Below are positions 220 through 15,841 of a DNA stretch of 32,934 nucleotides, in pieces. The position numbers were made by a program, and so were the translations under genes. Under the pieces are notes generated by a model that saw nothing but the letters and a program-made list of their open reading frames with translations, made no database searches and was not told the origin of the DNA. The stretch is from the NCBI GenBank assembly GCA_017965475.1, contig JAGCPV010000064.1:1-32934 (forward strand), given 5' to 3'. Within the stretch, counting starts at the first letter, position 1; each line of letters begins with the position of its first letter. The stretch comes from Prevotella sp. (GTDB lineage Bacteria > Bacteroidota > Bacteroidia > Bacteroidales > Bacteroidaceae).

Positions 220-235
220 TTACTCCTGCCTTTTC
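204..235. terminator. Bidirectional terminator-like palindrome holding both stop codons
   Basis: Positions 208-231 are a perfect 24-bp palindrome, extended by G-U/A-U/A-U/G-C pairs to 204-235. The centre lies exactly between the plus-strand TAA (217-219) and the minus-strand TAA (220-222). The stem would form in both transcripts. It is followed by only a short T run (231-234) on the plus strand, so function as an intrinsic terminator is inferred. Confidence 0.55.
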
Positions 236-1617: not shown

Positions 1618-1646
1618 ATCTTTAGTTATTTGATGGTTTGCGAATG

Positions 1647-1666
1647 AAAAAAGAGTCCTTGGACTC
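1647..1666 (-). terminator. Intrinsic terminator at the end of the porin gene
   Basis: On the minus strand the sequence reads GAGTCC-AA-GGACTC followed by six T. This is a short perfect stem whose first bases overlap the porin stop codon. It sits inside the 47-bp gap before the downstream amt gene, so it could attenuate read-through into that gene. Confidence 0.6.
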
Positions 1667-2369
1667 ACGGCTGTAGCGTGAATCCAAAGACTAAGTATGC
1701 CTTCTGTGAACAGGGGTTACCCACCACCTGTCCGAAGACGGGGATCGAGAACGAGTCGGTCACCTTGATCTCCTTCGTCGCCCTCAGTGCGAGGTTGGTG
1801 ACGGCGAAGCCCGTCGTTCCGTAGAAGTCTGTGGCGAATGGGACGGCACCGGCCGTAGCAGTCCAGTCAACAGAAGCAAGTTTGAATGGGACATTAGCCT
1901 CAACATAACTGCTGTAAGCCCGCTTGCCGTCCTTGTTCAGCCCGTCGTTGCCGGCAATGTTCGTGTACCACTGCAACGAGACCAGTCCGAAGTCGTAGCC
2001 GGCCGTTGCCTCAAACACGTGGTTCGTGCCATGGGCATCATACTTGAAATAGCGGTTCTCAGGGTCTTGGCCTGCATTGAACCAATAGTCAGTGATGCCG
2101 ATATTAAAACCGCCTATCGAATAGGCAAGTGTCAGGTCAAACTCCTTCGTATCGGCGGGATCCACGATGCCGTAACTACCCCAGGCTGTCAGTGACAGGC
2201 CATTATACCCGATACCCAGCGTCGGCTGGATGGCAGCACTACCCAAGTCCTGACCACGCCAGATATAACTACTTACCACGTCCGCCGCAACGGTTGTCTC
2301 TATCTCCTGTGCATGGGTGGTCGCTCCCGCAACCAGACCCATGACTAATAATATCATCTTTTTCATCAT
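1665..2369 (-). CDS. TorF-like outer-membrane beta-barrel porin
   Basis: A 234-residue protein with a signal peptide ending at about ATTHAQ, followed by alternating aromatic/polar beta strands and a C-terminal aromatic strand (VFGFTLQP), as expected for an outer-membrane barrel. The early VVSSYIWRGQDLG stretch resembles the TorF/gcw_chp putative porin family; this is recalled similarity, not a search result. It lies 36 bp after one amt gene and 47 bp before another, so a role in passing ammonium or small nitrogen compounds across the outer membrane is a reasonable inference. Adjacent ATGs at 2369 and 2366 are equally possible starts; the TTG further upstream was rejected. A terminator overlaps its stop codon. 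Confidence 0.78.
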   Translation of the reverse strand: MMKKMILLVMGLVAGATTHAQEIETTVAADVVSSYIWRGQDLGSAAIQPTLGIGYNGLSLTAWGSYGIVDPADTKEFDLTLAYSIGGFNIGITDYWFNAGQDPENRYFKYDAHGTNHVFEATAGYDFGLVSLQWYTNIAGNDGLNKDGKRAYSSYVEANVPFKLASVDWTATAGAVPFATDFYGTTGFAVTNLALRATKEIKVTDSFSIPVFGQVVGNPCSQKAYLVFGFTLQP

Positions 2370-2405
2370 TTTCAATCTTTTAATGTTCAATACTCCATGT
2401 TCAAT

Positions 2406-3665
2406 TTAGTTATAACACATCTCTCCGTGCTCATAGACATCCAGACCTTCTTCCTCGATGCGCTTATCGACACGCAGGCCATGGAACTTCTTAATGCCAT
2501 AGAAGAGGGCGAAACCACAGGCAGCTGCCCAGAGGTCGATGATGAGGACACCGAAGCACTCAGCACCGAAGAATCCCCAGCCAAAGCCATAGAACGCACC
2601 GTTAGTGGTAGAGAGCAGACCCGTCATCAGGGTACCGAGGATACCACAGACACCGTGTACAGAGCTGGCACCCACAGGGTCGTCGATGTGCAACTTATGA
2701 TCGATAAACTCGATGGCATAGACAAGGACGAGACCACAGACGAGACCAATGATCACGGCTCCCACGGGAGAGACAAGGTCACAACCTGCCGTGATACCTA
2801 CCAATCCGGCCAGCACACCGTTGAGTGTCAAAGAGAGCGAGGGCTTGCCGTACTTGATCCATGTGAGGAACATCGTAGCACAACCACCGGCGGCAGCAGC
2901 GAGGTTGGTCGTCAGGAACACATGAGAGATGGCGATACGGTTCACTTCACCAGAAGCAGCGAGCTGAGAGCCCGGGTTGAAACCAAACCATCCCAGCCAG
3001 AGGATGAACACGCCCAGAGAAGCCATAGCCAGGTTGTGACCAGGAATAGCGTTACTCTTCTTATCAGCATTGTACTTGCCAATACGCGGACCCAGTGCCA
3101 AGGCACCGATCAGTGCTAGTACGCCACCTACACTATGCACGATGGCCGAGCCTGCGAAGTCGTGGAACACATCACCGAAGGTGCTCATCATGAAACTGTC
3201 GGCAGCATCGTTGCAGAGCCAACCACCACCCCATGTCCAGTGTCCTTCGATGGGATAGATGAACAGGGAGATGACCGCACTGTAAATCAGGTACATCGAG
3301 AACTTCGTGCGCTCAGCCATCGCACCAGAGACGATCGTGGCGGAGGTGGCACAGAAGACGGTCTCGAAGATCAGGAAACCCTCTACGGGCAGGTCACCCT
3401 TATAGAAAGAGAGGTCGCCCCAGTTGGGCATACCAATGAAACCAGCGCCTTCGCTTCCGAACATGAAGCCGAAGCCGACGAAGAAGAACAGCAAAGAGCC
3501 GAACATAAAATCGACGAAGTTCTTCATCAGGATGTTGGCCGTGTTCTTACTACGTGTAAAACCAGCTTCACACAGCGCGAATCCCGGCTGCATCCAGAAA
3601 ACCAACATGGCTGCCAATAGCATCCATACGGTATCGAGTGATAATCCAATTTCGTTCATAATCAT
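2406..3665 (-). CDS. amt: Ammonium transporter (Amt), partner of the P-II protein
   Basis: Inner-membrane ammonium channel of 419 residues without a separate signal peptide; the protein starts directly in the first transmembrane helix. Family landmarks are FWMQPGFALCEAGFTRSKN at 23-41, the pore histidines His177 (DFAGSAIVHSVGG) and His337 (SSVHGVCGILG), and the WLGWFGFNPGS segment at about 223-233. It belongs to a different Amt subtype from the second copy: the helix-1 motif is EAGF here and YGG there. It follows the P-II gene by 42 bp, the classical glnK-amtB arrangement in which P-II plugs the channel when nitrogen is plentiful. The start could be ATG 3665 or ATG 3659. Confidence 0.95.
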   Translation of the reverse strand: MIMNEIGLSLDTVWMLLAAMLVFWMQPGFALCEAGFTRSKNTANILMKNFVDFMFGSLLFFFVGFGFMFGSEGAGFIGMPNWGDLSFYKGDLPVEGFLIFETVFCATSATIVSGAMAERTKFSMYLIYSAVISLFIYPIEGHWTWGGGWLCNDAADSFMMSTFGDVFHDFAGSAIVHSVGGVLALIGALALGPRIGKYNADKKSNAIPGHNLAMASLGVFILWLGWFGFNPGSQLAASGEVNRIAISHVFLTTNLAAAAGGCATMFLTWIKYGKPSLSLTLNGVLAGLVGITAGCDLVSPVGAVIIGLVCGLVLVYAIEFIDHKLHIDDPVGASSVHGVCGILGTLMTGLLSTTNGAFYGFGWGFFGAECFGVLIIDLWAAACGFALFYGIKKFHGLRVDKRIEEEGLDVYEHGEMCYN

Positions 3666-3707: not shown

Positions 3708-4055
3708 CTACTTCTTATCGCGGAGCACCGTATCGCCGTTCTCGCCCGTTCGTATAGACCATGTATCTATCACGTCGCTCACGAAGATACGGCCATCACC
3801 GACCTCGCCCGTATGGGCCACCTTCAGCAGTACCTTGATGGTAGGATCAACGATGATGTCGCGACAGACAATGGAGATGGCTACGCGCTCAATCACATCG
3901 GTACTATACTGCACACCACGATAGATTCTTTCCTGACGGCTCTGTCCGATGCCGTGGACGTCGTGGTACTCAAACCAGTCGATGTCTGATGAAAGCAATG
4001 CGGCCTTCACCTCCTCGAACTTGGTCTTGCGGATAATTGCTTCAATCTTTTTCAT
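3708..4055 (-). CDS. glnK: P-II nitrogen regulatory protein (GlnB/GlnK family)
   Basis: A 115-residue cytosolic signal protein, near the usual 112. P-II trimers bind ATP/ADP and 2-oxoglutarate and control Amt channels and nitrogen enzymes. The N-terminus MKKIEAIIRKTKFEEVK, the T-loop ending in IYRGVQY, the B-loop AHTGEVGDGRIFV and the C-terminal IRTGENGD are typical. Tyr50 aligns with the uridylylated Tyr51 of E. coli GlnB. The T-loop appears one residue shorter, and several ligand contacts differ: the Gln39/Lys40 region reads QSRQ, Lys58 is Arg, and Lys90 is Arg. Sensing may therefore differ from the enteric model. It is the first gene of the ammonium group and has its own strong promoter. 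The name glnK rests on its position beside amt. Confidence 0.93.
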   Translation of the reverse strand: MKKIEAIIRKTKFEEVKAALLSSDIDWFEYHDVHGIGQSRQERIYRGVQYSTDVIERVAISIVCRDIIVDPTIKVLLKVAHTGEVGDGRIFVSDVIDTWSIRTGENGDTVLRDKK

Positions 4056-4120: not shown

Positions 4121-4172
4121 CACTTTGTTCGTTTCTCGGTGCAAAGGTACGACATTATGAAAGCAAAACAAA
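4121..4172 (-). promoter_or_regulatory. glnK-amt promoter
   Basis: On the minus strand a TTTG (4172-4169) is separated by 19 bp from TACCTTTG (4149-4142), matching the Bacteroidetes -33/-7 consensus. The spacer end AATGTCG and the -7 box are shared with glnN (28 of 31 bases over this stretch) and largely with gltB. A CAAAGTG (4127-4121) lies 22 bp after the start of the -7 box, exactly as CAAARTG does in gltB and glnN. The leader to the ATG would be about 80 nt. Confidence 0.8.
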
Positions 4173-4242: not shown

Positions 4243-4257
4243 CTTACGATTTGAAAG
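4243..4257. promoter_or_regulatory. Shared upstream box 1 between glnK and dapF
   Basis: CTTACGATTTGAAAG is an imperfect dyad (CTTAC-N5-GAAAG). Its centre (4250) is 101 bp from the start of the glnK -7 element and 100 bp from that of dapF, so one box is equidistant from both divergent promoters. Near-identical boxes lie at 101 bp before gltB and glnN. Confidence 0.65.
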
Positions 4258-4274
4258 AAACATAGGGTGTTTTG

Positions 4275-4289
4275 CTTACGATTTGTTAC
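4275..4289 (+). promoter_or_regulatory. Upstream box 2 of dapF
   Basis: CTTACGATTTGTTAC is a direct repeat of box 1, sharing CTTACGATTTG. Centre-to-centre spacing from box 1 is 32 bp, and the centre is 68 bp before the dapF -7 element. The same 32-bp spacing occurs before gltB and glnN. It ends in GTTAC, as do the proximal boxes there. Confidence 0.65.
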
Positions 4290-4325
4290 CATTAGCCGAA
4301 ACGAAGATGTTTTTATGAAAGATTC

Positions 4326-4357
4326 TTTGCATTTTTATCCATATCGCCGTACTTTTG
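4326..4357 (+). promoter_or_regulatory. dapF promoter
   Basis: TTTG at 4326-4329, a 20-bp spacer and TACTTTTG at 4350-4357 fit the Bacteroidetes consensus. Transcription would start near 4364, about 15 nt before the ATG at 4378. This also excludes the longer N-terminal extension that the open frame would allow. Confidence 0.7.
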
Positions 4358-4377
4358 CCGTCGTAAACAAGAACAAT

Positions 4378-5190
4378 ATGAAAAAGAAAGTACCATTCAC
4401 CAAGATGCACGGAACTGGCAACGACTACATCTACGTCAACACCATCACAACCCCCGTGCCAGACCCCGAGAAGGCGGCCATCGTCTGGAGCGACCGTCAC
4501 AAGGGTATCGGCAGCGACGGGCTGGTGCTGATTGGAGAGTCGCCTGTTCCGGAGGCAGACTTCTCGATGCGTATCTTCAACGCCGACGGCAGCGAAGCCA
4601 TGATGTGCGGCAATGCTTCACGCTGCATCGGGAAATACCTGTATGAGAGAGCCCTGACAACACAAACACAAATCCGACTGCTCACACTCTCCGGCATCAA
4701 GACACTGGATCTCCATGTCACACCAGATGGTATCGTGGAGAGTGTTACCGTTGACATGCTTGAACCCGTACTTGAAAATGAAGAGCAATTCATTCCATCA
4801 CGAAGCATCGGCAAAGGTACCTTCGTCTCGATGGGCAACCCCCACTATGTCATCTTTACAGACGACATCGATCAGGTGGGTGAGACAGGACGTATCCTGG
4901 AGCTCCACCCAGCCTTCCCCCAGCGCTGTAACATCGAGTTCGCACGCATCGAGGCCGACGGTAGCATCCGTACCCGCGTCTGGGAACGGGGCAGTGGTAT
5001 CACGATGGCCTGTGGCACAGGTGCCTGTGCCACGGCCGTGGCTGCCTGTCTCACGAAGAGGGCTGGTAGGAAAAGTCGCATCGTAATGGATGGCGGTACC
5101 CTCGACATCGAATGGCGCGAGAGTGACAACCATGTCTATATGACCGGTCCTGCCGCCTTTGTCTTCGATGGCGAAATAGAACTTCCTTAA
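4378..5190 (+). CDS. dapF: Diaminopimelate epimerase
   Basis: Cytosolic PLP-independent epimerase converting LL- to meso-diaminopimelate for lysine and peptidoglycan. At 270 residues it has the normal length. Both catalytic cysteines are present: Cys77 in MMCGNASRC and Cys212 in [25 protein letters not shown] at 7-20 is the family N-terminus. The open frame continues 37 codons upstream, but that segment overlaps the promoter, and homologous proteins start at MxxxxFTKMHG, so ATG 4378 was chosen. It is divergent from the P-II/Amt genes and shares their upstream operator, placing it in the nitrogen regulon. The LL-diaminopimelate aminotransferase gene that often accompanies dapF in Bacteroidales is absent here; gltB follows instead. 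Confidence 0.95.
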
Positions 5191-5198
5191 CCTTTATG

Positions 5199-5213
5199 CT
5201 TTCAATTTGTAAG
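5199..5213 (-). promoter_or_regulatory. gltB upstream box 1
   Basis: Read on the minus strand this is CTTACAAATTGAAAG, matching box 1 of dapF/glnK in 13 of 15 positions. Its centre (5206) is 101 bp before the gltB -7 element. It begins only nine bases after the dapF stop codon. Confidence 0.65.
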
Positions 5214-5230
5214 CAAACGGGCGCGATATG

Positions 5231-5245
5231 ATTACAAATTGTTAC
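5231..5245 (+). promoter_or_regulatory. gltB upstream box 2
   Basis: ATTACAAATTGTTAC is centred at 5238, 69 bp before the -7 element and 32 bp from box 1. It shares TTAC-N2-ATTGTTAC with the glnN box 2 at the identical distance. Confidence 0.65.
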
Positions 5246-5295
5246 TTCAGGCGAAAATTAAGATTAAAATGTACGGAAAGGGACGGTAGAAGTTT

Positions 5296-5339
5296 ACAAA
5301 ATGTCATACCTTTGCCGTCGATTTCTAGCAAAATGAAAG
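5296..5339 (+). promoter_or_regulatory. gltB promoter core and downstream element
   Basis: The -7 box TACCTTTG is at 5307-5314, preceded by AAAATGTCA. No TTTG is found 19-21 bp upstream, so the promoter probably needs an activator. GCAAAATGAAAG at 5328-5339 occupies the same offset from the -7 box as GCAAAGTGTAAG in glnN. The leader also carries AAGGATA just before the ATG at 5357. Confidence 0.7.
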
Positions 5340-5356
5340 ATTAAAACAAGGATAAT

Positions 5357-8300
5357 ATGACAAAAAGTAAGCAAACTCAAACCGAAAAAGGACTTTACCA
5401 AAGTACGTACGAGCATGACGCGTGTGGTGTGGGTATGATCGTCAATATCCACGGTAACAAGAGCCACGAGCTGGTAGATAACGCCCTGCGGGTGCTGGAA
5501 AACATGCGCCATCGTGGTGCTGAGGTAGGAAAAGATGGTGACGGTGCGGGTATCATGATCCAGATACCCCACGAGTTCATCCTGTTGCAGGGCATCCCCG
5601 TGCCGGAAAAAGGAAAATACGGCACGGGTCTGGTGTTCCTGCCCAAGGAAGAGAAGGCACAGCAGGAGATTCTGAGTATCATGATCGAGGAGATCGAGCG
5701 TGAGGGACTGCAGCTGATGCACCTGAGGACAGTGCCCACGAACCCCGATTGTCTGGGTGAGGCTGCCTTGGGTACAGAACCCGACATCAAGCAGGTGTTT
5801 GTGACGGGTGTCAGCGACGATCAGGTGGAAGCCTTCCCACGTACCTTATATATTATCAGGAAGAAGATTGAGAAGCGCGTCAACCATAAGGACTTCTACA
5901 TCTGTTCGCTGAGCAACACAAACATGATATACAAGGGCATGCTGTCGTCGATGCAGGTAAGACAGTATTTCCCTGACCTGACCAACCCCTACCTGACGAG
6001 TGGACTGGCGCTGGTACACTCACGATTCAGCACAAACACATTCCCAACGTGGTCGTTGGCCCAGCCTTTCCGTCTGTTGTGTCACAATGGTGAGATCAAC
6101 ACGATCCGTGGTAACCGCGGATGGATGCAGGCCCGTGAGAGCGTGCTGTCGAGTGAGGCCCTGGGCGAGGCGAAGGCGATATCGCCTATTGTACAGCCAG
6201 GTATGAGCGACAGTGCCAGCCTCGACAACGTATTGGAGTTTTTCGTGATGAGCGGTCTCTCACTGCCCCACGCCATGAGCGTACTCGTGCCGGAGAGTTT
6301 TAATGACAAGAACCCCATCTCGGAAGATCTGAAGGCGTTTTATGAGTACCACTCGATCCTGATGGAACCATGGGACGGTCCTGCCGCCCTGTTGTTCAGT
6401 GACGGTCGTTTTGCAGGTGGTATGCTCGACAGAAACGGTCTGCGCCCGGCCCGCTACACCATCACCAAGAACGACACGATGATCGTGGCCTCGGAGGTGG
6501 GTGTGATGGACTTCGACCCCACTGAGATCGCCGAGAAGGGTCGTCTGCAGCCTGGTAAGATCCTGCTTATCGATACGAAAGAAGGAAAAATCTACTACGA
6601 CGGTGAGATCAAACAGCAACTGGCCAATGAACATCCATATCGTCAGTGGCTGAGTACGAACCGTATCCAGCTGGAGAAACTGAAGAGTGGTCGTCATGTG
6701 GAGAACGGTGTCAGTGACCTGTTGAAGAAAGAGGTGATGTTCGGCTACGGTGCCGAGGATATCGACGCCACCATTGTACCAATGGCCGTGAACGGTCAGG
6801 AGCCAACTGCCTCCATGGGTAACGACACACCGTTGGCCGTACTCTCTGACAAGCCACAGACATTCTTCAACTACTTCCGTCAACAGTTCGCACAGGTGAC
6901 GAACCCTGCCATCGACTCCATCCGTGAGGAACTGGTAATGTCGTTGACGGAGTATATCGGTCGTGTGGGTACGGGCATCCTGAACCCTGACGAGACGAAC
7001 TGTAAGATGGTACGTCTGCCGCACCCGATCCTGAATAACACGCAACTCGATATCCTCTGTAATATCAGATATAAGGGATTCAACACGATCAAGTTACCGA
7101 CACTTTTCGACGGTGCGAAAGGTGGAGACGGACTGCGTGAGGCCCTCGATGCCCTGTGCCATCAGGCCGAGAAGAGCGTGGATGAGGGTTATAACTATAT
7201 CATCCTGAGTGACCGTGATGTGGATGCCGAACATGTGGCTATCCCATCGCTGTTGGCTGTCTCTGCCGTTCACCATTACCTGATCTCTGTCGGCAAACGT
7301 GTACAGACGGCCCTGATCGTGGAAAGCGGTGAGATCCGCGAGACGATGCATGCGGCCCTGTTGCTGGGCTACGGTGCTTCTGCCCTCTGCCCCTACATGA
7401 CGTTCGCCATCCTCGACAACCTCGTGAAACAGCACAAGATACAGGAGGACTACGCCACTGCCGAGGCCAACTATATCAAGGCCGTGAAGAAGGGTCTGTT
7501 CAAGATCATGGCAAAGATGGGTATCTCGACCATCCGCTCATATCGCGGTGCGAAGATCTTCGAGAGCATCGGCCTGAGCGAGAACCTGCTGAAGACATAC
7601 TTCGGCACGGAGGTAAGTACCATCGGCGGTATCGGACTGGATAAGATCGCCAGCGACGCCATCGCCATGCACCAGGCCGCTTTCGCCCATAACAACACAG
7701 ACACAACCTTCCTGCCCAATCTGGGTCAGTTCCACTGGCGCAAAGACGGTATCAAGCATGCCTGGAATCCTGAGACGATCGCTACCCTACAACTGGCCAC
7801 CAGGACGGGTAACTATGAGAAGTTCAAACAGTTCTCAAAACTCGTCGATGCCAAGGAGAAGCCTATCTTCATCCGCGACTTCATGGGTTGGAAGAAGAAC
7901 CCCATCAGCATCGACGAGGTGGAGCCGGTGGAGAACATCGTGAAGCACTTCGTGGCAGGAGCCATGTCGTTCGGGGCCCTCTCGAAGGAGGCTCACGAAG
8001 CGATCTGTCTGGCAATGAACAAACTCGGCGCCCGCTCAAACACAGGTGAGGGCGGTGAGGACAGTGAACGTTTCCATTCAACGTTCGACGGCATCAGCCT
8101 CAGCTCCAAGACGAAGCAGGTGGCCAGTGGCCGTTTCGGTGTGACTGTCGAATACCTGGTGAATGCCGAAGAGATACAGATCAAGGTGGCCCAAGGTGCC
8201 AAGCCAGGAGAGGGCGGACAGTTGCCCGGCTTCAAGGTGAATGAGGTGATCGCCAAGACACGTCACTCGATTCCGGGCATCTCACTCATCTCACCCCCAC

Positions 8301-9841
8301 CCCATCATGACATCTACAGTATCGAGGACCTGGCCCAGCTGATCTTCGACCTGAAGAACGTGAACCCGAAAGCGGCCGTCAGTGTGAAACTCGTCGCCGA
8401 GAGTGGTGTGGGAACGATTGCCGCAGGCGTCGCCAAGGCCAAGGCAGACCTCATCATCATCAGCGGTGCTGAGGGTGGTACGGGCGCCTCGCCCGCCAGC
8501 AGTATGCGTTTCGCAGGTATCTCACCAGAGATCGGACTATCAGAGACACAGCAGACACTCGTCCGCAACGGTCTTCGCAGCAATGTTCGTCTGCAGGTCG
8601 ATGGACAGATCAAGACAGGTCGAGACATCGTACTGATGGCACTGCTCGGCGCTGAGGAGTTTGGTTTCGGTACAGCAGCACTCATCGTACTCGGCTGTGT
8701 GATGATGCGTAAATGCAACCTGAACACCTGTCCGATGGGTGTAGCTACGCAGAACGCAGAACTAAGAAAGCACTTCGTAGGAAGATACGAATATCTCGTC
8801 AACTACTTCACATTCCTCGCCCAAGAGGTGCGCGAGTATCTGGCTGAGATGGGATTCAAGAGCCTCAACGACATCGTGGGTCGTACGGACCTCATCGAGA
8901 CGGGTGCATCCGTACTCGACTTCGACAGACTGCTGAATAAGGAAGATGGTACGCTCCACTTCACAGGCGACATGACGAAACCCGCCGTGCCACTGGGTAT
9001 GCAGGGCACTATCCTCGACCAACAGATGATCGAGGCCGCAGGGAAAGCCATCGACCAACAGAAAGAAGTATCGCTCGACTATGCCATCAAGAATACAGAC
9101 CGTGCCGTAGGAACGATGCTGTCCGGTACGGTGGCAGCGAAATACGGTCTGGCAGGTCTGCCCGACGACACCATCAACGTGAAGTTCAAAGGTTCGGCTG
9201 GTCAGTCGTTCGGTGCTTTCCTCGCCCATGGCATCAACTTCAAACTCGAAGGTGAGACCAACGACTACTTCGCCAAGGGCCTCAGTGGTGGACGTATCGC
9301 TATCCTGCCACCCACGCGTTCGAACTTCAAGGCCGAGGACAATATCATCGCCGGAAACACGGGCCTCTACGGTGCCACCAGTGGTGAACTCTATATCAAC
9401 GGTAAGGTAGGTGAGCGCTTCGGTGTACGTAACTCGGGTGCCATCGCCGTCATCGAGGGTGCCGGTGATCACTGTTGTGAATATATGACAGGCGGTCGTG
9501 TCGTGGTGCTCGGCAAGACGGGGCGTAACTTCGCAGCCGGTATGAGTGGTGGTGTGGCCTATGTCTATGACAAAGACCATACGTTCGACTACTTCTGTAA
9601 CATGGACATGGTGGAACTGGGACTTGTCGAGGACAGTGTCTCGCGTAAGGAACTGCTCGAACTCATCCGTCAGCACTACCTCCACACGGGTTCGGCCCTC
9701 GCAGGACGTATGCTCGATGACTGGCAGCGCTACGTGGAAGACTTCATCCAAGTCGTGCCTATCGAATACAAGCGTGTCTTACAGGAGGAGCAGATGAAAA
9801 AGCTCCGCGAGAAGATCGCCGATATGCAAAGAGAGTATTAA
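5357..9841 (+). CDS. gltB: Glutamate synthase (GOGAT), large subunit
   Basis: A 1494-residue alpha subunit that hydrolyses glutamine and transfers the ammonia to 2-oxoglutarate, giving two glutamates. Domains in order: class II glutamine amidotransferase with the nucleophile Cys23 (HDACGVG) exposed after removal of a 22-residue propeptide; a central linker domain (about 480-770); the FMN-binding synthase barrel (about 830-1230); and the C-terminal GxGxG beta-helix (about 1270-1460). The [3Fe-4S] ligands are Cys1114, Cys1120 and Cys1125 in CVMMRKCNLNTC. It is followed after 21 bp by gltD. Its promoter carries the two upstream boxes and core elements shared with glnN, consistent with joint control of the GS-GOGAT cycle. 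ATG 5357 is preceded by AAGGATA. Confidence 0.98.
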   Translation: MTKSKQTQTEKGLYQSTYEHDACGVGMIVNIHGNKSHELVDNALRVLENMRHRGAEVGKDGDGAGIMIQIPHEFILLQGIPVPEKGKYGTGLVFLPKEEKAQQEILSIMIEEIEREGLQLMHLRTVPTNPDCLGEAALGTEPDIKQVFVTGVSDDQVEAFPRTLYIIRKKIEKRVNHKDFYICSLSNTNMIYKGMLSSMQVRQYFPDLTNPYLTSGLALVHSRFSTNTFPTWSLAQPFRLLCHNGEINTIRGNRGWMQARESVLSSEALGEAKAISPIVQPGMSDSASLDNVLEFFVMSGLSLPHAMSVLVPESFNDKNPISEDLKAFYEYHSILMEPWDGPAALLFSDGRFAGGMLDRNGLRPARYTITKNDTMIVASEVGVMDFDPTEIAEKGRLQPGKILLIDTKEGKIYYDGEIKQQLANEHPYRQWLSTNRIQLEKLKSGRHVENGVSDLLKKEVMFGYGAEDIDATIVPMAVNGQEPTASMGNDTPLAVLSDKPQTFFNYFRQQFAQVTNPAIDSIREELVMSLTEYIGRVGTGILNPDETNCKMVRLPHPILNNTQLDILCNIRYKGFNTIKLPTLFDGAKGGDGLREALDALCHQAEKSVDEGYNYIILSDRDVDAEHVAIPSLLAVSAVHHYLISVGKRVQTALIVESGEIRETMHAALLLGYGASALCPYMTFAILDNLVKQHKIQEDYATAEANYIKAVKKGLFKIMAKMGISTIRSYRGAKIFESIGLSENLLKTYFGTEVSTIGGIGLDKIASDAIAMHQAAFAHNNTDTTFLPNLGQFHWRKDGIKHAWNPETIATLQLATRTGNYEKFKQFSKLVDAKEKPIFIRDFMGWKKNPISIDEVEPVENIVKHFVAGAMSFGALSKEAHEAICLAMNKLGARSNTGEGGEDSERFHSTFDGISLSSKTKQVASGRFGVTVEYLVNAEEIQIKVAQGAKPGEGGQLPGFKVNEVIAKTRHSIPGISLISPPPHHDIYSIEDLAQLIFDLKNVNPKAAVSVKLVAESGVGTIAAGVAKAKADLIIISGAEGGTGASPASSMRFAGISPEIGLSETQQTLVRNGLRSNVRLQVDGQIKTGRDIVLMALLGAEEFGFGTAALIVLGCVMMRKCNLNTCPMGVATQNAELRKHFVGRYEYLVNYFTFLAQEVREYLAEMGFKSLNDIVGRTDLIETGASVLDFDRLLNKEDGTLHFTGDMTKPAVPLGMQGTILDQQMIEAAGKAIDQQKEVSLDYAIKNTDRAVGTMLSGTVAAKYGLAGLPDDTINVKFKGSAGQSFGAFLAHGINFKLEGETNDYFAKGLSGGRIAILPPTRSNFKAEDNIIAGNTGLYGATSGELYINGKVGERFGVRNSGAIAVIEGAGDHCCEYMTGGRVVVLGKTGRNFAAGMSGGVAYVYDKDHTFDYFCNMDMVELGLVEDSVSRKELLELIRQHYLHTGSALAGRMLDDWQRYVEDFIQVVPIEYKRVLQEEQMKKLREKIADMQREY

Positions 9842-9862
9842 AACTTCAAACAGCAAAAGATT

Positions 9863-11227
9863 ATGGGAAATCCGAAAGCATTTTTAGAGATACACCGCCA
9901 AGAGGCGGGATACCGTCCGATTCACGATAGAATCCACGATTTCGGCGAGGTGGAGCAGACGCTCAGCACCCGCGAACGTAAGCTGCAGGCAAGTCGCTGC
10001 ATGGACTGTGGCGTTCCTTTCTGTCACTGGGCTTGTCCGCTGGGCAACAAAGCACCAGAGTGGAACGATGCGCTATTCAAAGGCGACTGGGAGTTAGCCT
10101 ATCAGCTGCTCACCAGCACGAACCCCTTCCCCGAGTTCACGGGTCGTATCTGTCCTGCCCTCTGCGAGAAGGCCTGTGTGCTGAACCGCTATAACCATGA
10201 GCCCACCACAAACCGCGAGGATGAGGCCTCCATCATCGAAGCCGCCTTCCGCGAGGGTTACATCCAACCGCACATCCCCGAGCGCAACGGCAAGAAGGTG
10301 GCAGTGATTGGTGCCGGTCCTGCCGGACTGGCAGCAGCCAACGACCTGAACCAGATGGGCTATACGGTCACGGTCTTTGAGAAGAACGAGGCTGCAGGTG
10401 GTCTGCTCCGCTACGGCATCCCCAACTTCAAACTGAACAAGACCATCATCGACCGTCGTCTGAGACTGATGGAGGAAGAGGGTATCACATTCAAGTACGG
10501 CGAGGCCGTCGATCTGGATCACCTAGCAGAACCAGATAAGTTAGCGGGACAAGGATTTGACGCTTACGTCATCTCCACCGGCACCCCAACCGCCAGAGAC
10601 TTGAAAGCTCCTGGTCGCGAATTGAAGGGTGTTCACTTTGCCCTCGAACTGCTGAGTCAGCAGAACCGCGTTCTCGCTGGCATTGAATTCTCTAAGGACG
10701 AGCGTATCACTGCCAAGGGCAAGGACGTGCTGGTCATCGGTGGTGGCGACACAGGTAGTGACTGCATCGGTACGGCCCACCGTCAGGGTTGCAAGAGCGT
10801 CACTCAGATAGAGATCATGCCCAAGCCTGTCGAGGGGCCTGAAGATCCGCAGAACCCCTGGCCGAACTGGCCCCGCACGCTTAAGACCACCTCGTCGCAC
10901 GAGGAGGGCTGTACCCGCCGCTGGAACATCAACACGCTGGAGTTCCTGGGTGAAAATGGTAAACTGACAGGTGTCAAGGTACAGGAGATCGACTGGAAAC
11001 CCAACCCTGAAGGTGGTCGTCCGATCATGGTCGAGAAGGGTAAGCCAGAGATCATCAAGGCTGAACTCGTACTCCTCGCCATGGGATTCCTCAAGCCAGA
11101 GCATCCAGAGTATCCCAAGAACGTCTTCGTATGCGGTGATGCCGCCAACGGCGCATCCCTCGTGGTACGTGCCATGGCCTCTGGCAAACAGGCAGCCCAG
11201 AACGTGAACACCTTCCTTTCGAAGTAA
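9863..11227 (+). CDS. gltD: Glutamate synthase, small (NADPH-oxidising) subunit
   Basis: The 454-residue beta subunit supplies electrons from NAD(P)H to GltB. The N-terminal iron-sulfur cysteines are Cys46, 49, 54 and 58 (CMDCGVPFCHWAC) and Cys97, 101 and 105 (CPALCEKAC). The FAD-binding GAGPAG motif is at 150-155, and the nucleotide-binding GGGDTG is at 293-298. The C-terminal VFVCGDAANGASLVVRAMASG is the second FAD contact. Length and layout are normal. It lies 21 bp after gltB, clearly the same operon, and is followed by a terminator. Confidence 0.98.
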   Translation: MGNPKAFLEIHRQEAGYRPIHDRIHDFGEVEQTLSTRERKLQASRCMDCGVPFCHWACPLGNKAPEWNDALFKGDWELAYQLLTSTNPFPEFTGRICPALCEKACVLNRYNHEPTTNREDEASIIEAAFREGYIQPHIPERNGKKVAVIGAGPAGLAAANDLNQMGYTVTVFEKNEAAGGLLRYGIPNFKLNKTIIDRRLRLMEEEGITFKYGEAVDLDHLAEPDKLAGQGFDAYVISTGTPTARDLKAPGRELKGVHFALELLSQQNRVLAGIEFSKDERITAKGKDVLVIGGGDTGSDCIGTAHRQGCKSVTQIEIMPKPVEGPEDPQNPWPNWPRTLKTTSSHEEGCTRRWNINTLEFLGENGKLTGVKVQEIDWKPNPEGGRPIMVEKGKPEIIKAELVLLAMGFLKPEHPEYPKNVFVCGDAANGASLVVRAMASGKQAAQNVNTFLSK

Positions 11228-11250
11228 GTACCGTTTTTCCAAAATAATGC

Positions 11251-11291
11251 AAAATCTTTCTCGCAGATGGTCTCCGTCTGCGAGATTTTTT
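11251..11291 (+). terminator. Intrinsic terminator after gltD
   Basis: The stem CTCGCAGA (11260-11267)/TCTGCGAG (11277-11284) has a nine-base loop and is followed by ATTTTTT. Flanking AAAATCT and AGATTTT add pairing. It ends the gltB-gltD transcript 24 bp after the gltD stop. Confidence 0.85.
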
Positions 11292-11292
11292 G

Positions 11293-11300
11293 TACTTTTG
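11293..11300 (+). promoter_or_regulatory. Possible -7 element for the radical-SAM/DUF4130 pair
   Basis: TACTTTTG begins right after the terminator T run and 31 bp before the ATG at 11324. No TTTG is seen at the usual -33 distance, which instead falls inside the terminator stem. Confidence 0.45.
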
Positions 11301-11323
11301 CGGAAAGAACCAAGATTACCCTG

Positions 11324-12613
11324 ATGCTGACGGAAAAGACAATGGAACGGCTGCGGATACTCACCGAATCGGCGAAGTACGATGTATCGTGTTCGTCGAG
11401 CGGCACCGTGCGTTCCGGTAAGAAAGGGATGGTAGGCAACACCGTTGGCGGCATGGGCATCTGCCACTCGTTTGCCGACGACGGACGTTGTATCTCACTG
11501 CTGAAGGTGATGCTGACGAACTACTGTAAGTACGACTGTGCCTATTGTATCAACCGCCGCTCGAACGATATCCCTCGCGCCACATTGGCTGTCTCGGAAC
11601 TGGAGGAGATCGTGATGGAGTTCTATCGTCGTAACTACATCGAGGGTCTGTTCCTGTCGAGCGGTGTGGTGAGGAATCCCGACTATACCATGGAACGGCT
11701 GACTGCCATTGTACGTGACTTACGGACAGTGCACCGCTTCAATGGCTATATTCACCTGAAGACCATTCCTGGGGCCTCACAGGAACTGCTTCAGGAGGCT
11801 GGGCGATATGCCGACCGTATGAGTGTGAACATCGAAATCCCCAAGGAGGAGTCGTTGAAAGCTCTGGCACCAGAAAAGGATCACAAGAGCGTGTTCCTGC
11901 CGATGTCACAGATCCAACAGGGAGTCTTGGAGAACAAGGAGGACAGGAAGAAGTTCCGACATGCTCCGCGTTTTGTGCCAGCAGGACAATCGACACAGAT
12001 GATCGTAGGTGCAACGAAGGAAAGCGACCTCGACATTCTGAAGATGTCGTCAGCGATGTATCAGCAACCCACCATGCGACGCGTCTATTACTCTGGCTAT
12101 GTCAGCGTGAACACCTACGACCCCCGTCTGCCCGTATTGAAACAGCCACCACTGGTGCGCGAAAACCGTCTGTATCAGGCCGACTGGCTGATGCGTTTCT
12201 ACCAATTCAGTGTCGATGAGATCGTGGATGATGCCCACGCGCATCTCGATCTGGATGTGGATCCCAAACTCGGCTGGGCCCTGCGGCATCCAGAGTTCTT
12301 CCCCGTGGATATCAACAGTGCCCCCTACGAGCATATCCTCCGTGTGCCAGGCATCGGCGTGAAGTCCGCCATCCTCATCGTGAACTCACGCCGTTTCAAC
12401 CGGATCACCTCCTACCACCTGAAGAAAATGGGGGTGGTGATGAAGAAGGCCAAATACTTCATCACCTGCGGTGAACTCACCTCGGCGTTCTCACAACCCA
12501 TCATCGGCATCAACGAACTGCGCCCAGAGCGTCTTCGTCCTCTGCTTCTCTCGAAGACCCAGCAGAAACGGGCGGCTGAGGAACAACAACTGACACTCGA
12601 TTTCAAGGAATGA
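11324..12613 (+). CDS. Radical SAM protein, putative DNA modification/repair (TIGR03916-like)
   Basis: A 429-residue radical S-adenosylmethionine protein. The [4Fe-4S] cluster motif is Cys68-X3-Cys72-X2-Cys75 (CKYDCAYC). The early YDVSCSSSGTVRSGKKG and MGICHSFADDGRCISLLK segments are typical of the family of putative DNA modification/repair radical SAM proteins. A helix-hairpin-helix DNA-binding motif (RVPGIGVKSAILIVNSRR) starts at about residue 340. It overlaps the next gene by four bases (ATGA), the usual arrangement for this pair. The frame could begin upstream at 11267, but that lies inside the gltD terminator, so ATG 11324 was chosen; ATG 11342 is an alternative. The reaction is not known for the family. 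It is probably unrelated to the flanking nitrogen genes. Confidence 0.88.
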   Translation: MLTEKTMERLRILTESAKYDVSCSSSGTVRSGKKGMVGNTVGGMGICHSFADDGRCISLLKVMLTNYCKYDCAYCINRRSNDIPRATLAVSELEEIVMEFYRRNYIEGLFLSSGVVRNPDYTMERLTAIVRDLRTVHRFNGYIHLKTIPGASQELLQEAGRYADRMSVNIEIPKEESLKALAPEKDHKSVFLPMSQIQQGVLENKEDRKKFRHAPRFVPAGQSTQMIVGATKESDLDILKMSSAMYQQPTMRRVYYSGYVSVNTYDPRLPVLKQPPLVRENRLYQADWLMRFYQFSVDEIVDDAHAHLDLDVDPKLGWALRHPEFFPVDINSAPYEHILRVPGIGVKSAILIVNSRRFNRITSYHLKKMGVVMKKAKYFITCGELTSAFSQPIIGINELRPERLRPLLLSKTQQKRAAEEQQLTLDFKE

Positions 12614-13419
12614 CTGTCTATACCTTCGACAACACCCTCGACGGACTGTTAACGGCCGTGTTCGACAGTTTTGCACTACATCAGCAGGATGTGACATTAC
12701 TGGCGGAAGGGGAGCAATTGCCCCTGTTTGCCGACGAGCCACATCTCGTGGTGACCGACGGTGAAAAGGCAGCACGTGTCTGGAAAGGACTGGAAAAGCA
12801 TCTATCAGTAAGCGGACTCAGAGTGATCACCGTTAGTTGGCTTTCGGAAGAACGTACGCTCCATCAACCGCTCTTCAATTATATATGTAAGGTGTTCCGA
12901 CAGCCGACAGGAGCCCCCAGCATCGAAAGCAACGCCTCTGATGAGGATGTGCTGGCCGTACGCAACACCTGTCGCCGCGTGCTCCACGAACAATTGCGTA
13001 TGAAACAGTTCATTCGTTTCCAGAAAGCGAAGGACGGCACTTACCTCGGCGTCGTCTCACCAGACCATAATGTGCTACCGCTGGTCATCGACCACTTTCA
13101 GGACCGTTTTGGCGACCAGCCCTGGCTGATATATGATGCCAAGAGGCACTACGGGTATTATTACACCCCAACCCCTCCCCATACAGGGGCGGGGAGTAGT
13201 CCCATCCGCATCACCTTCGAGGACGAGGCAGCCATCCCTTTCAATCTGGAGAACGGCAAACTCGATGCCAACCTGTTGAGCAGTGATGACCAGTTGCTAC
13301 AGGATCTCTGGCGCACCTATTTCAAGGCCATCTGTATCAAGGAACGGATGAATCCCCGTAAACAACTCAGCGACATGCCCCGTCGCTACTGGAGGTACAT
13401 GACGGAAAAGAACAAATAA
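12610..13419 (+). CDS. DUF4130 / TIGR03915-type DNA metabolism protein with an in-frame hairpin insertion
   Basis: The 269-residue partner of the preceding radical SAM gene starts at the ATGA overlap, so translation is probably coupled. Family features seen are VYTFDNTLDGLLTAVFDSF at the N-terminus, WLIYDAKRHYGYYY at about 174-187, and ERMNPRKQLSDMPRRYWRYMTE at the C-terminus (DUF4130). The family is linked to DNA repair only by association with uracil-DNA glycosylase-like and radical SAM partners. One oddity stands out: after YGYYY the protein carries a Pro/Gly/Thr-rich stretch (TPTPPHTGAGSS), encoded by a C-rich/G-rich inverted repeat. I would expect only a short turn in homologues. The frame is kept, so the protein is probably still functional. 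Confidence 0.85.
   Translation: MTVYTFDNTLDGLLTAVFDSFALHQQDVTLLAEGEQLPLFADEPHLVVTDGEKAARVWKGLEKHLSVSGLRVITVSWLSEERTLHQPLFNYICKVFRQPTGAPSIESNASDEDVLAVRNTCRRVLHEQLRMKQFIRFQKAKDGTYLGVVSPDHNVLPLVIDHFQDRFGDQPWLIYDAKRHYGYYYTPTPPHTGAGSSPIRITFEDEAAIPFNLENGKLDANLLSSDDQLLQDLWRTYFKAICIKERMNPRKQLSDMPRRYWRYMTEKNK
13163..13204. repeat. REP-like GC-rich inverted repeat inside a coding sequence
   Basis: CCCCTCCCC (13172-13180), ATACA loop, GGGGCGGGG (13186-13194): nine paired positions with one mismatch, flanked by CACCCCAA and AGTAGTCCC. It resembles the short palindromic intergenic elements common in Bacteroidetes genomes. Here it sits in frame within the DUF4130-family gene. The limits are approximate. 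Confidence 0.6.
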
Positions 13420-13448
13420 TCAAAACACATGGAGATAGCCCCGATTTA

Positions 13449-13463
13449 CTTTTAAATCGTAAG
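13449..13463 (-). promoter_or_regulatory. glnN upstream box 1
   Basis: Read on the minus strand this is CTTACGATTTAAAAG, differing from the dapF/glnK box at one of 15 positions. Its centre (13456) is 101 bp before the glnN -7 element. Confidence 0.65.
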
Positions 13464-13480
13464 TAAACCACCATGCATCA

Positions 13481-13495
13481 CTTACAGATTGTTAC
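13481..13495 (+). promoter_or_regulatory. glnN upstream box 2
   Basis: CTTACAGATTGTTAC is centred at 13488, 69 bp before the -7 element and 32 bp from box 1. Both distances are the same as in gltB. Confidence 0.65.
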
Positions 13496-13537: not shown

Positions 13538-13589
13538 TTTTGCTTCCAAAATGTCGTACCTTTGCATCAAATTCTAAGCAAAGTGTAAG
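13538..13589 (+). promoter_or_regulatory. glnN promoter core and downstream element
   Basis: The -7 box TACCTTTG is at 13557-13564 with AAAATGTCG directly before it and TTTTGCTTC further upstream, as in glnK. The TTTTG is 14 bp from the -7 box, shorter than the usual 19-21, and no TTTG occurs at the usual place. GCAAAGTGTAAG at 13578-13589 matches the gltB leader element in position and sequence. Confidence 0.7.
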
Positions 13590-13624: not shown

Positions 13625-15841
13625 ATGGAAGCATTAAGATTTCAGGTTGTCGGTGAGGCTTTCAAGAAGAAGCCGCTCGACGTGAAAGCACCAAGTGAGA
13701 GACCTTACGAGTATTTTGGTAAGAAGGTCTTCAACCGTGAGAAAATGTACAAGTACCTGCCGAAGCAGGTCTATGAGAAGATGATCGACGTGATGGACAA
13801 TGGCGCACGTCTCGATCGTGACATCGCTGACGCTGTAGCCGCTGGTATGAAGCAGTGGGCTGTAGAGAACGGTGTCACCCACTATACACACTGGTTCCAG
13901 CCGTTGACGGAGGGCACCGCCGAGAAGCACGACTCCTTCATCGAGCACGACGGTAAGGGCGGTATGGTAGAAGAGTTCACTGGTAAGTTGCTCGTACAAC
14001 AGGAGCCTGATGCCTCTTCATTCCCCTCTGGCGGTATCCGTTCAACTTTCGAGGCACGTGGTTACTCAGCTTGGGATCCCACATCACCTGTGTTCATCAT
14101 TGACGATACGTTGTGTATTCCCACCGTCTTCATCTCTTATAGCGGTGAGGCACTCGACTATAAGGCTCCGTTGCTGCGCGCTCTGCATGCTGTGAACGTG
14201 GCTGCCGTTGATGTATGCCATTATTTCGATCCCGCCGTGAAGAAGGTGACTTCCAACCTCGGCTGGGAACAGGAGTATTTCCTCGTCGATGAGGGTCTTT
14301 ATGCCGCCCGTCCTGACCTGCTGTTGACAGGCCGTACGCTGATGGGTCACGACTCCGCCAAGAACCAGCAGATGGACGACCACTACTTTGGAAGTATTCC
14401 TGAGCGTGTCGCAGCTTTCATGCGTGACCTTGAGATCCAGGCTCTGGAACTCGGCGTTCCCTGTAAGACGCGTCATAACGAGGTGGCTCCCAACCAGTTT
14501 GAGCTCGCTCCTATCTTCGAGGAGACCAACCTGGCCGTTGACCATAACATGATGCTGATGTCACTGATGAAGAAGGTAGCCCGTAAACACGGTTTCCGCG
14601 TGCTGCTCCATGAGAAGCCCTTCGCAGGTATCAACGGTTCTGGTAAACACAACAACTGGAGTCTGAGTACCGATAATGGTATCCTGCTCCACGCCCCTGG
14701 CAAGACCCCGGAACAGAACCTCCGCTTCGCTACTTTCATTGTGGAGACGTTGATGGGTGTGTATAAACACAATGGTCTGTTGAAGGCCTCAATCATGAGT
14801 GCCACCAACGCCCACCGTCTGGGTGCCAACGAGGCACCTCCCGCCATCGTTTCATCGTTCCTGGGCAAACAGGTCAGTGAGTTACTCGACCATATCGAGA
14901 AGGCAGACAAGGACGACATCCTCGCCATCGCTGGCAAGCAGGGTCTGAAGATGGATATCCCTGAGATTCCTGAACTGCTGATTGATAATACCGACCGTAA
15001 CCGTACATCACCCTTCGCCTTCACTGGTAACCGTTTCGAGTTCCGTGCCGTCGGTTCTGAGGCCAACTGCGCCAGCGCTATGATTGCCCTGAACAGTGCC
15101 GTCGCCGAAGCACTGGTTGACTTTAAGAAGCGTGTGGATGCCCGTATCCCCGAGTTCGAGAAGAAACTGAAAGGAACAGGTCACTCTGCTACCTTCCATG
15201 CCATCATCGATGTGCTGCGTGAGGATATCAAGACCTGTAAGCCTATCCGCTTCGATGGCAACGGTTACAGTGACGAATGGGTTGTCGAGGCTGAGAAGCG
15301 TGGTCTGGATGTCGAGAAGTCTTGTCCGAAGATCTTCGAGCGTTACCTCGACAAGGAGAGCATCGAGATGTTCGAGAGTCTGGGCGTGATGACGAAGAAA
15401 GAGCTAGAGGCCCGCAACGAGGTGAAATGGGAGACCTACACGAAGAAGATTCAGATTGAGGCCCGCGTGCTGGGTGACCTGTCAATGAACCATATCATCC
15501 CCGTGGCTACCAGCTATCAGAGTCAGTTGCTGAAGAATGTGGAGAATATGTCTGCTATCTTCCCCGTCGATAAGGCTGAGAAACTCTCCGCCCGTAATAT
15601 CAAGATCATCGAGGAGATTGCTGAGCGCACCTCCGCTATTGAGAAGGGTGTAGAAGAACTCGTCAACGCCCGTAAACTCGCCAATAAGATCGAGGACGAG
15701 CACGAGAAGGCCATCGCCTATCACGACAAGGTGGAGCCCAAACTCGATGACATCCGTTATGAGATCGACAAGCTGGAGCTCATCGTCGATGATGCCCTCT
15801 GGCCACTGCCGAAGTATCGTGAACTACTGTTCATCCGATAA
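13625..15841 (+). CDS. glnN: Glutamine synthetase type III
   Basis: ATP-dependent amidation of glutamate by the large (738-residue) GSIII enzyme typical of Bacteroidetes; it forms a cytosolic oligomer. The metal/substrate motif NQFELAPIFEE begins at Asn290. The ATP-site segment KPFAGINGSGKHNNWS begins at Lys331. NRTSPFAFTGNRFEFRAVGS (about 460-479) is the conserved GS C-terminal motif. A long helical C-terminus (about 640-738), characteristic of GSIII, is present. The frame could open at a TTG six bases upstream, but ATG 13625 follows AAGGATTG. The promoter carries the same boxes as gltB. Two hairpins with T runs follow the gene. Confidence 0.97.
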   Translation: MEALRFQVVGEAFKKKPLDVKAPSERPYEYFGKKVFNREKMYKYLPKQVYEKMIDVMDNGARLDRDIADAVAAGMKQWAVENGVTHYTHWFQPLTEGTAEKHDSFIEHDGKGGMVEEFTGKLLVQQEPDASSFPSGGIRSTFEARGYSAWDPTSPVFIIDDTLCIPTVFISYSGEALDYKAPLLRALHAVNVAAVDVCHYFDPAVKKVTSNLGWEQEYFLVDEGLYAARPDLLLTGRTLMGHDSAKNQQMDDHYFGSIPERVAAFMRDLEIQALELGVPCKTRHNEVAPNQFELAPIFEETNLAVDHNMMLMSLMKKVARKHGFRVLLHEKPFAGINGSGKHNNWSLSTDNGILLHAPGKTPEQNLRFATFIVETLMGVYKHNGLLKASIMSATNAHRLGANEAPPAIVSSFLGKQVSELLDHIEKADKDDILAIAGKQGLKMDIPEIPELLIDNTDRNRTSPFAFTGNRFEFRAVGSEANCASAMIALNSAVAEALVDFKKRVDARIPEFEKKLKGTGHSATFHAIIDVLREDIKTCKPIRFDGNGYSDEWVVEAEKRGLDVEKSCPKIFERYLDKESIEMFESLGVMTKKELEARNEVKWETYTKKIQIEARVLGDLSMNHIIPVATSYQSQLLKNVENMSAIFPVDKAEKLSARNIKIIEEIAERTSAIEKGVEELVNARKLANKIEDEHEKAIAYHDKVEPKLDDIRYEIDKLELIVDDALWPLPKYRELLFIR

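Follow-up and report, generated by a model that had tools for sequence, protein, structure and literature searches.

In Escherichia coli, Lrp sites are found at positions -152, -215 and -246 of gltBDF, that is 63 and 31 apart, and an insertion of 5 bp, but not of 10 bp, lowers expression, for which bending or looping of the DNA has been proposed (PMC1784095). The archaeal Sa-Lrp protein of Sulfolobus binds the control regions of gltB, gdhA and three glnA genes as well as its own, responds to glutamine and both bends and wraps DNA; its deletion left gltB expression unchanged in the three conditions tested (PMC3584215). The sites of Sa-BarR and St-BarR are 15-bp semipalindromes with spacers of 15-17 bp, and DNA has been seen wrapped around an octamer of Acidianus BarR (PMC10201364). 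Here, we analysed a stretch of 32,934 nucleotides from Prevotella sp. (contig JAGCPV010000064.1; referred to in full as the window), in which pairs of 15-bp boxes lie upstream of dapF, gltB and glnN, coding for diaminopimelate epimerase, the glutamate synthase large subunit and glutamine synthetase, respectively. We propose that these boxes are probably operators of a regulator of the Lrp/AsnC family, most likely of Lrp1, which is encoded on another contig of the same genome.

All six boxes described in the initial annotation were recovered (Table 1), and the distances recomputed by script agree with the earlier values: the box centres lie 100 and 68 bp before the -7 element (TAnnTTTG) of dapF and 101 and 69 bp before those of gltB and glnN. 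The divergent glnK gene shares the dapF boxes, as had been noted for box 1, with its -7 element 101 bp from box 1 and 133 bp from box 2. The flipped orientation of box 1 in gltB and glnN was also reproduced, as both score on the minus strand and their box 2 on the plus strand. All four promoters of the window fit a single register of 37 + 32n, within 1 bp. The arrangement resembles E. coli gltBDF in the presumed regulator family, in the use of several upstream sites with 31- or 63-bp distances, in the importance of helical phasing and in the target gltB; it differs in that the E. coli sites are located between -152 and -246 and IHF is needed (PMC1784095), whereas the Prevotella pairs are nearer, with box centres some 69 and 101 bp ahead of the -7 element. 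In addition, the Prevotella promoters have a TAnnTTTG -7 element and the targets include glnN, the glnK-amt cluster, dapF/dapL and pyrG. Sulfolobus Sa-Lrp and BarR are set apart by archaeal promoters and distant sequence.

Read as a palindrome of odd length, the 15-bp box is CTTACAAWTTGTAAG, with a central A/T, and a profile made from 122 boxes of relatives, with reverse complements added, holds 14.9 bits. In 50 aligned box pairs, the box columns have a mean identity of 76% as compared with 49% for the 17 linker columns, a gap that is partly due to selection, since the pairs had been picked for their boxes. The linker ends lean to AAA and TTT. Judged from this alignment, the spacing is conserved while the linker sequence varies.

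To define the promoters of relatives, genome contigs were scanned, yielding 80 gltB loci with protein identities of 79-93% over the best segment. Starts were found for 80 gltB, 51 dapF, 45 glnN and 31 glnK genes, and the 129 promoters kept (72 gltB, 17 dapF, 10 glnN and 30 glnK) are those with sufficient upstream DNA and a TAnnTTTG no more than 200 bp away. These contain 263 sites with a score of at least 7 between 8 and 152 bp upstream, as compared with a mean of 15.1 and a maximum of 22 in 30 dinucleotide-shuffled sets. At a score of at least 8 and between -100 and 225 bp, there are 2.52 sites per promoter, versus 0.14 in 116 promoters of other genes from the same loci; the lone in-register pair among these controls precedes pyrG, which is also a model match in another genome. 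The positions of 325 sites follow a helical period of 10.45 bp (R 0.88; at most 0.18 in the jittered control) and, in addition, a period of 31.3 bp. Spacings of 32 bp (56 times) and 31 bp (38 times) predominate over 42 bp (6 times). Sites cluster at -57, -25, 7, 38, 69, 101 and 133, with a second set one helix turn off at -15, 16, 79, 111 and 143 (negative values are downstream of the -7 element), and the ladder of 31-32 bp rungs often runs on through the promoter. Training of the profile used boxes at six expected distances, which favours peaks there; the positions -57, -25, 7, 16, 38 and 143 were untrained. With a profile trained without gltB, 163 sites were found in the 72 gltB promoters, 134 of them in two registers covering 9 of 32 residues. 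Relatives share ancestry, and these counts are therefore not counts of independent events; a near-identical pair was seen once in the set of 80 gltB loci and once in that of 58 lrp1 loci. By these promoter comparisons, the operator system is real and conserved. The earlier suggestion that ammonium assimilation is controlled by an upstream activator or a looping regulator is supported in so far as boxes, spacing and promoter register recur in relatives and are rare in control promoters; activation rather than repression is what we infer. Particularly long ladders were seen in an amt promoter (L193, 1373-1556), with rungs at -25, 7, 69, 101 and 143, and in a dapL/glnK intergenic region (L303, 1354-1546), which contains six matches.

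The conservation of the sites was also assessed in a panel of 30 genomes from 28 genera, including the own genus, with loci that had not been used for training. Eighteen of these genomes yielded gltB, at 19 loci, and 11 of the 17 assessable loci have sites, three of them as pairs. The 16 sites are located at 68, 69, 99 and 101 and at -16, -15, 16, 16, 17, 78, 79, 79, 80, 110, 141 and 143, and all 16 lie within 2 bp of the two registers. Among the panel loci that match training loci at the DNA level, the closest is 93% identical.

Within the genome itself, single boxes at 3 mismatches are common, with 16 in the window as compared with 11.4 expected, and it is the combination of pair and position that stands out from random occurrence. 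A whole-genome scan for the two-box pattern with up to 3 mismatches gave 15 rows, as compared with 8 for a reversed-pattern control. At 0-1 mismatch, the scan gave only dapF, gltB and, on contig C94, a new pair, and glnN needs 3. The C94 pair precedes an aminotransferase gene, at 69 and 101 bp before its -7 element; we take this gene to be dapL (LL-diaminopimelate aminotransferase). A divergent acyl-CoA synthetase-like gene beside dapL was rejected as a target in the same register, as the distances to its -7 element, read by hand, are 89 and 121 bp. With the two-box profile, gltB, dapL, dapF/glnK and glnN matched at E values of at most 1e-4 and the next match at 0.1; the own pairs of these loci are among the 50 training rows, which makes the E values optimistic. 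A single box of 17.4 bits was found directly before an AsnC/Lrp gene, lrp1, on contig C107. Of six other places with a single box that were read, four fall within long open reading frames (ORFs), and the two intergenic ones have no -7 element in register. The 3.2-kb loci of the AsnC paralogues on contigs C146 and C90 contain no box of at least 7.5 bits. Among 20 scanned ORFs of the window, none matched a DNA-binding regulator family, and four were without any match.

Lrp1 is a protein of 154 amino acids (C107:5366-5827) with an AsnC helix-turn-helix domain (PF13404, 48.7 bits) and an Lrp/AsnC ligand domain (PF01037, 71.2 bits), both over the cut-off. Its best solved match is AsnC (PDB 2cg4, presumably the E. 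coli protein) over residues 4-148, with an E value of 6e-27. The plain, untrained consensus is matched in at least 10 of 15 positions at one distance in 36 of 58 lrp1 promoters; no other distance between -40 and 129 gives more than 5 such promoters. At the favoured distance, the start of the box follows the first T of the -7 element by 8 nt, which places the box directly 3' of this element. CTTAC directly follows TAnnTTTG in 18 of 30 lrp1 genes of the family, often as CTTACnnnnTGATAA. The profile, whose training included no lrp promoter, gives at least 8 bits at this position in 16 of the 30 lrp1 promoters and in 15 of 28 from genomes that yielded gltB loci. Of the genomes behind the 80 gltB loci, 30 were searched for Lrp1 and 28 have it. 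A palindromic site of about 15 bp, several sites phased by whole helical turns and a site in the control region of the regulator itself are in the style of Lrp/AsnC operators. The initial annotation knew of no named regulator for the site; the evidence now points to an AsnC/Lrp-family protein, an assignment that we consider well supported, with Lrp1, by the sequence evidence, as the probable individual binding protein. E. coli AsnC is a local regulator that controls asnA and itself. Two model matches before asnA add to the likeness with AsnC, whereas the Prevotella candidate would differ from it in governing central ammonium assimilation. Three lrp genes from distant Bacteroidales families (L214, L215 and L219) have a box of at least 12 bits at the same distance after the -7 element, unlike closer relatives in other families.

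The extent of the regulon was estimated with the two-box model, for which 50 of 55 pairs were used. The four own-genome pairs were among them, as were the glnN site of genome G067 and gltB, glnN, glnK and dapF sites of G168, G169 and G172 (L298-L300, L302, L308 and L309), and in each genome the 150 best first-look candidates were scored. In the genus, 24 loci were read, corresponding to 20 distinct sites besides two own ones. Sites before fitting genes are those of glnN (G067, E 1e-4, a training row), amt with five rungs (G068, E 0.005), lrp1 (G067, E 0.005), serC (G070, E 0.003), asnA (G067, E 0.008; G066, E 0.03), ilvC (G069, E 0.03) and asnB, which is divergent from dapF (G062, E 0.7, in register at 101/132 and 98/67). 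The gene families of asnA, ilvC, serC and asnB were assigned by Pfam, and their exact names are presumptive. At L179, a model match lies upstream of what reads like purL, which codes for a glutamine-dependent purine enzyme. Genome G061 gave 50 rows at E values of up to 1, far above the other eleven genomes searched, possibly a repeat or composition effect. In Xylanibacter ruminicola Ga6B6 (G168), eleven places were found, among them gltB and glnN (both training rows), the divergent dapL/glnK (E 5e-6), pyrG (E 0.001), glutamate dehydrogenase (E 0.03), lrp1 (E 0.1) and amt (E 0.4). G169 and G172 yielded dapF (a training row), ilvC, glnN and a gene that reads as glutamine-amidotransferase-like.

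In published arrays of P. ruminicola 23, a strain for which 65 ammonium-responsive genes have been listed, ammonium alters the transcripts of amtB, glnK, asnB, glnN and gltBD in concert, by 26- to 69-fold; dapF, pyrG and gdhA (2.2-fold) are within the same list of 18 nitrogen genes (PMC5552732). The text contradicts itself on the direction of the response, which is given in one sentence as induction under limitation and, in the discussion, under non-limiting ammonium, with higher levels in ammonium-grown than in peptide-grown cells. The words AsnC, Lrp and promoter do not occur in the main text of that report. Sites were found before, or in the operon of, nine of the 18 genes (amtB, glnK, asnB, gdhA, glnN, dapF, gltB, gltD and pyrG); they come from P. 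ruminicola strains other than 23 or from related species, for asnB and dapF from other species only, and the nine are those met in the loci analysed rather than in a gene-by-gene survey of the 18. An amino-acid-responsive AsnC/Lrp protein would be a natural reader of the signal, provided that it is amino acids derived from peptides that lower these transcripts.

Several observations weigh against this assignment or limit its reach. By the count of at least 10 matching positions, 22 of the 58 lrp1 promoters lack the box. In other families, it is present at the lrp1 position in none of 12 closer Lrp1 relatives (64-76% identity) and in three of 16 more distant ones. Two genomes, G030 (91% complete) and that of locus L030 (2.0 Mb), both incomplete assemblies, have strong gltB pairs, and only proteins similar to the paralogue Lrp2 were found in them. 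It is possible that this reflects missing sequence, since G053 from the same genus as G030 has Lrp1, or a specificity shared by the two proteins. Conservation in other genera, which held for gltB in the form of in-register sites, did not extend to glnN, for which 0 of 27 assessable panel loci have a pair and five have a scattered site. A two-box match at an E value of at most 0.02 was obtained in only 9 of the 30 panel genomes. Within the genus, only 8 of the 20 sites outside the own genome precede fitting genes, with E values from 1e-4 to 0.7, and 12 precede unrelated or unidentified genes. Likewise, three of the eleven places in G168 precede genes that read as SusC-like, and one further place belongs to none of the listed groups. 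The boxes of these SusC-like receptor genes (L315, L320 and L322) lie about 98-162 bp before the -7 element and may represent a different use of the site or look-alikes.

One might also speculate that Lrp2, which is 49% identical to Lrp1, or mixed oligomers of both proteins mainly regulate gltB and glnN, while Lrp1 represses only itself. The recognition segments of Lrp1 and Lrp2 are nearly alike (SRAAIHQRVQHL and SGAAIHQRIQKL), which also speaks against a role for Lrp1 alone, and Lrp2 is present in all 30 genomes searched, including G030, in which Lrp1 was not found, although these genomes had been preselected for such a match. However, none of 29 assessable Lrp2 promoters has the box at the autoregulatory position, as compared with 36 of 58 for Lrp1; seven of these 29 loci have a site somewhere within 400 bp. 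In addition, Lrp1 accompanies nearly all gltB loci searched, and one of the two genomes without it, that of L017, is also without a clear gltB pair. We regard this alternative as unlikely. Considerably less probable is a regulator of another family, for example a Crp/Fnr- or NtcA-like protein or a two-component regulator, for which the lrp1 site would be one more target. Such a reading draws on the fact that the boxes are linked to Lrp1 through sequence, and no account of nitrogen control in the Bacteroidales was found by paper title or abstract start. The site of NtcA, a member of the Crp family, is GTA-N8-TAC and thus an even palindrome. The box reads GTA-N9-TAC, and its odd symmetry over 15 bp is at variance with the even half-site spacing of Crp and NtcA, for which reason an NtcA/Crp-like site was rejected. 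Moreover, helically phased arrays of 15-bp sites, DNA wrapping and binding of the regulator to its own control region have been reported for Lrp/AsnC proteins (PMC10201364, PMC3584215), and the 20 scanned ORFs of the window gave no match to a regulator family. Chance, in the form of AT-rich promoter DNA combined with selection by the earlier reader, has the abundance of single boxes on its side and can be dismissed as next to negligible in view of the shuffled sets, the control promoters, the 10.45-bp phase and the recurrence in non-training loci.

With Lrp1 as the most likely regulator, we propose that each 15-bp palindrome would be bound by one winged-helix dimer and that rungs 31-32 bp apart would place successive dimers on one face of the DNA. 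A higher oligomer, which is an octamer in characterised relatives, could occupy at least two sites at once, thereby bending or wrapping the control region. From their upstream positions near 69 and 101 bp, the sites would act on gltBD, glnN, dapF and dapL, presumably by activation, and the common dapF/glnK sites would also serve the glnK-amt cluster from 101 and 133 bp. Weaker rungs on the core promoter and start codon may allow the complex to extend over the promoter itself; same-faced dimers at 69 and 101 together with these rungs would fit a complex that wraps the control region, as has been observed for Sa-Lrp and BarR. At lrp1, the one site directly after the -7 element would repress the gene, as its start directly after this element suggests. 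The effector would be an amino acid, with glutamine, asparagine and lysine as candidates. A wider proposal, which we put forward tentatively and with more doubt than confidence, is that an AsnC-type protein is the main regulator of nitrogen assimilation in Prevotella-like Bacteroidales, replacing NtrC/GlnR. It would form a nucleosome-like ladder with a rung at every third helix turn, from about 130 bp upstream across the core promoter to the start codon, its effector-dependent wrapping would switch between activation and occlusion, and the operator of its own gene would be located directly after the TTTG of the -7 element.

The boxes, -7 elements and genes of the window are listed in Table 1. 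The name type III glutamine synthetase (GSIII) for glnN is one that we take from the P. ruminicola 23 literature. Two glnN-like genes, as reported for P. ruminicola 23, are found in G005, a genome of the same genus in one contig, at C1:1558324 and C1:2970426. Between gltD and glnN (11267-13419, plus strand), a radical-SAM protein (TIGR03916) and a putative DNA-repair protein (TIGR03915) are encoded, which are not known to be linked to nitrogen. An ORF of 241 amino acids without an NCBIfam match lies between both amt genes (1665-2390, minus strand); it may correspond to PRU_1977 of P. ruminicola 23, a gene that responds strongly to ammonium.

Table 1. Operator boxes, -7 elements and genes in the window; d is the distance (bp) of the box centre before the -7 element TAnnTTTG, negative when downstream.
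Feature	Position	Strand	d (bp)	Score (bits)	Remarks
Box 1, dapF/glnK bidirectional operator	4243..4257	+	100 (dapF), 101 (glnK)	17.8	centre 4250
Box 2, dapF/glnK operator	4275..4289	+	68 (dapF), 133 (glnK)	14.9	centre 4282
glnK -7 element TACCTTTG	4142..4149	-			start 4149 on minus strand (script)
dapF -7 element TACTTTTG	4350..4357	+			start 4350 (script)
gltB operator box 1	5199..5213	-	101	21.3	
gltB operator box 2	5231..5245	+	69	16.0	
Weaker in-register site on gltB core promoter	5293..5307	+	7	9.9	position recurrent in relatives
In-register site 3' of gltB -7	5325..5339	+	-25	13.3	recurrent in relatives
Weak in-register match on gltB start codon	5357..5371	+	-57	7.6	recurrent at -56/-57 in relatives
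gltB -7 element TACCTTTG	5307..5314	+			script
glnN operator box 1	13449..13463	-	101	12.7	
glnN operator box 2	13481..13495	+	69	16.4	
glnN -7 element TACCTTTG	13557..13564	+			script
Second ammonium transporter gene (amt)	220..1668	-			TIGR00836 over cut-off
Ammonium transporter gene (amt)	2406..3665	-			TIGR00836 over cut-off
glnK (P-II protein)	3708..4055	-			first gene of divergent ammonium-transport cluster; P-II NCBIfam models, below cut-offs
dapF (diaminopimelate epimerase)	4378..5190	+			TIGR00652 over cut-off; start set at ATG 4378
gltB (glutamate synthase large subunit)	5357..9841	+			NF008730 over cut-off
gltD (glutamate synthase small subunit)	9863..11227	+			TIGR01317 over cut-off
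glnN (glutamine synthetase)	13625..15841	+			glutamine-synthetase models below cut-off; high-identity relatives

NtrC, GlnR and TnrA control the same metabolic targets as those next to the Prevotella boxes, but belong to unrelated protein families and use unrelated types of sites. Control by sigma-54 with an NtrC-type activator would call for a -24/-12 promoter; the promoters here have TAnnTTTG -7 elements. No description of an Lrp/AsnC nitrogen regulon in Bacteroidetes, Bacteroides or Prevotella was found by paper title or abstract start, a search that left the subscription literature mostly uncovered. Prevotella are abundant bacteria of gut and rumen, and their use of ammonium matters for the nitrogen supply of the host. 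The analysis joins nine genes of the published ammonium-response list to one candidate protein and one exact site. If the proposal is true, the Lrp1 system would supply the missing control switch of nitrogen use in these bacteria, covering glutamine synthetase and glutamate synthase (GS-GOGAT), PII/Amt and lysine genes.

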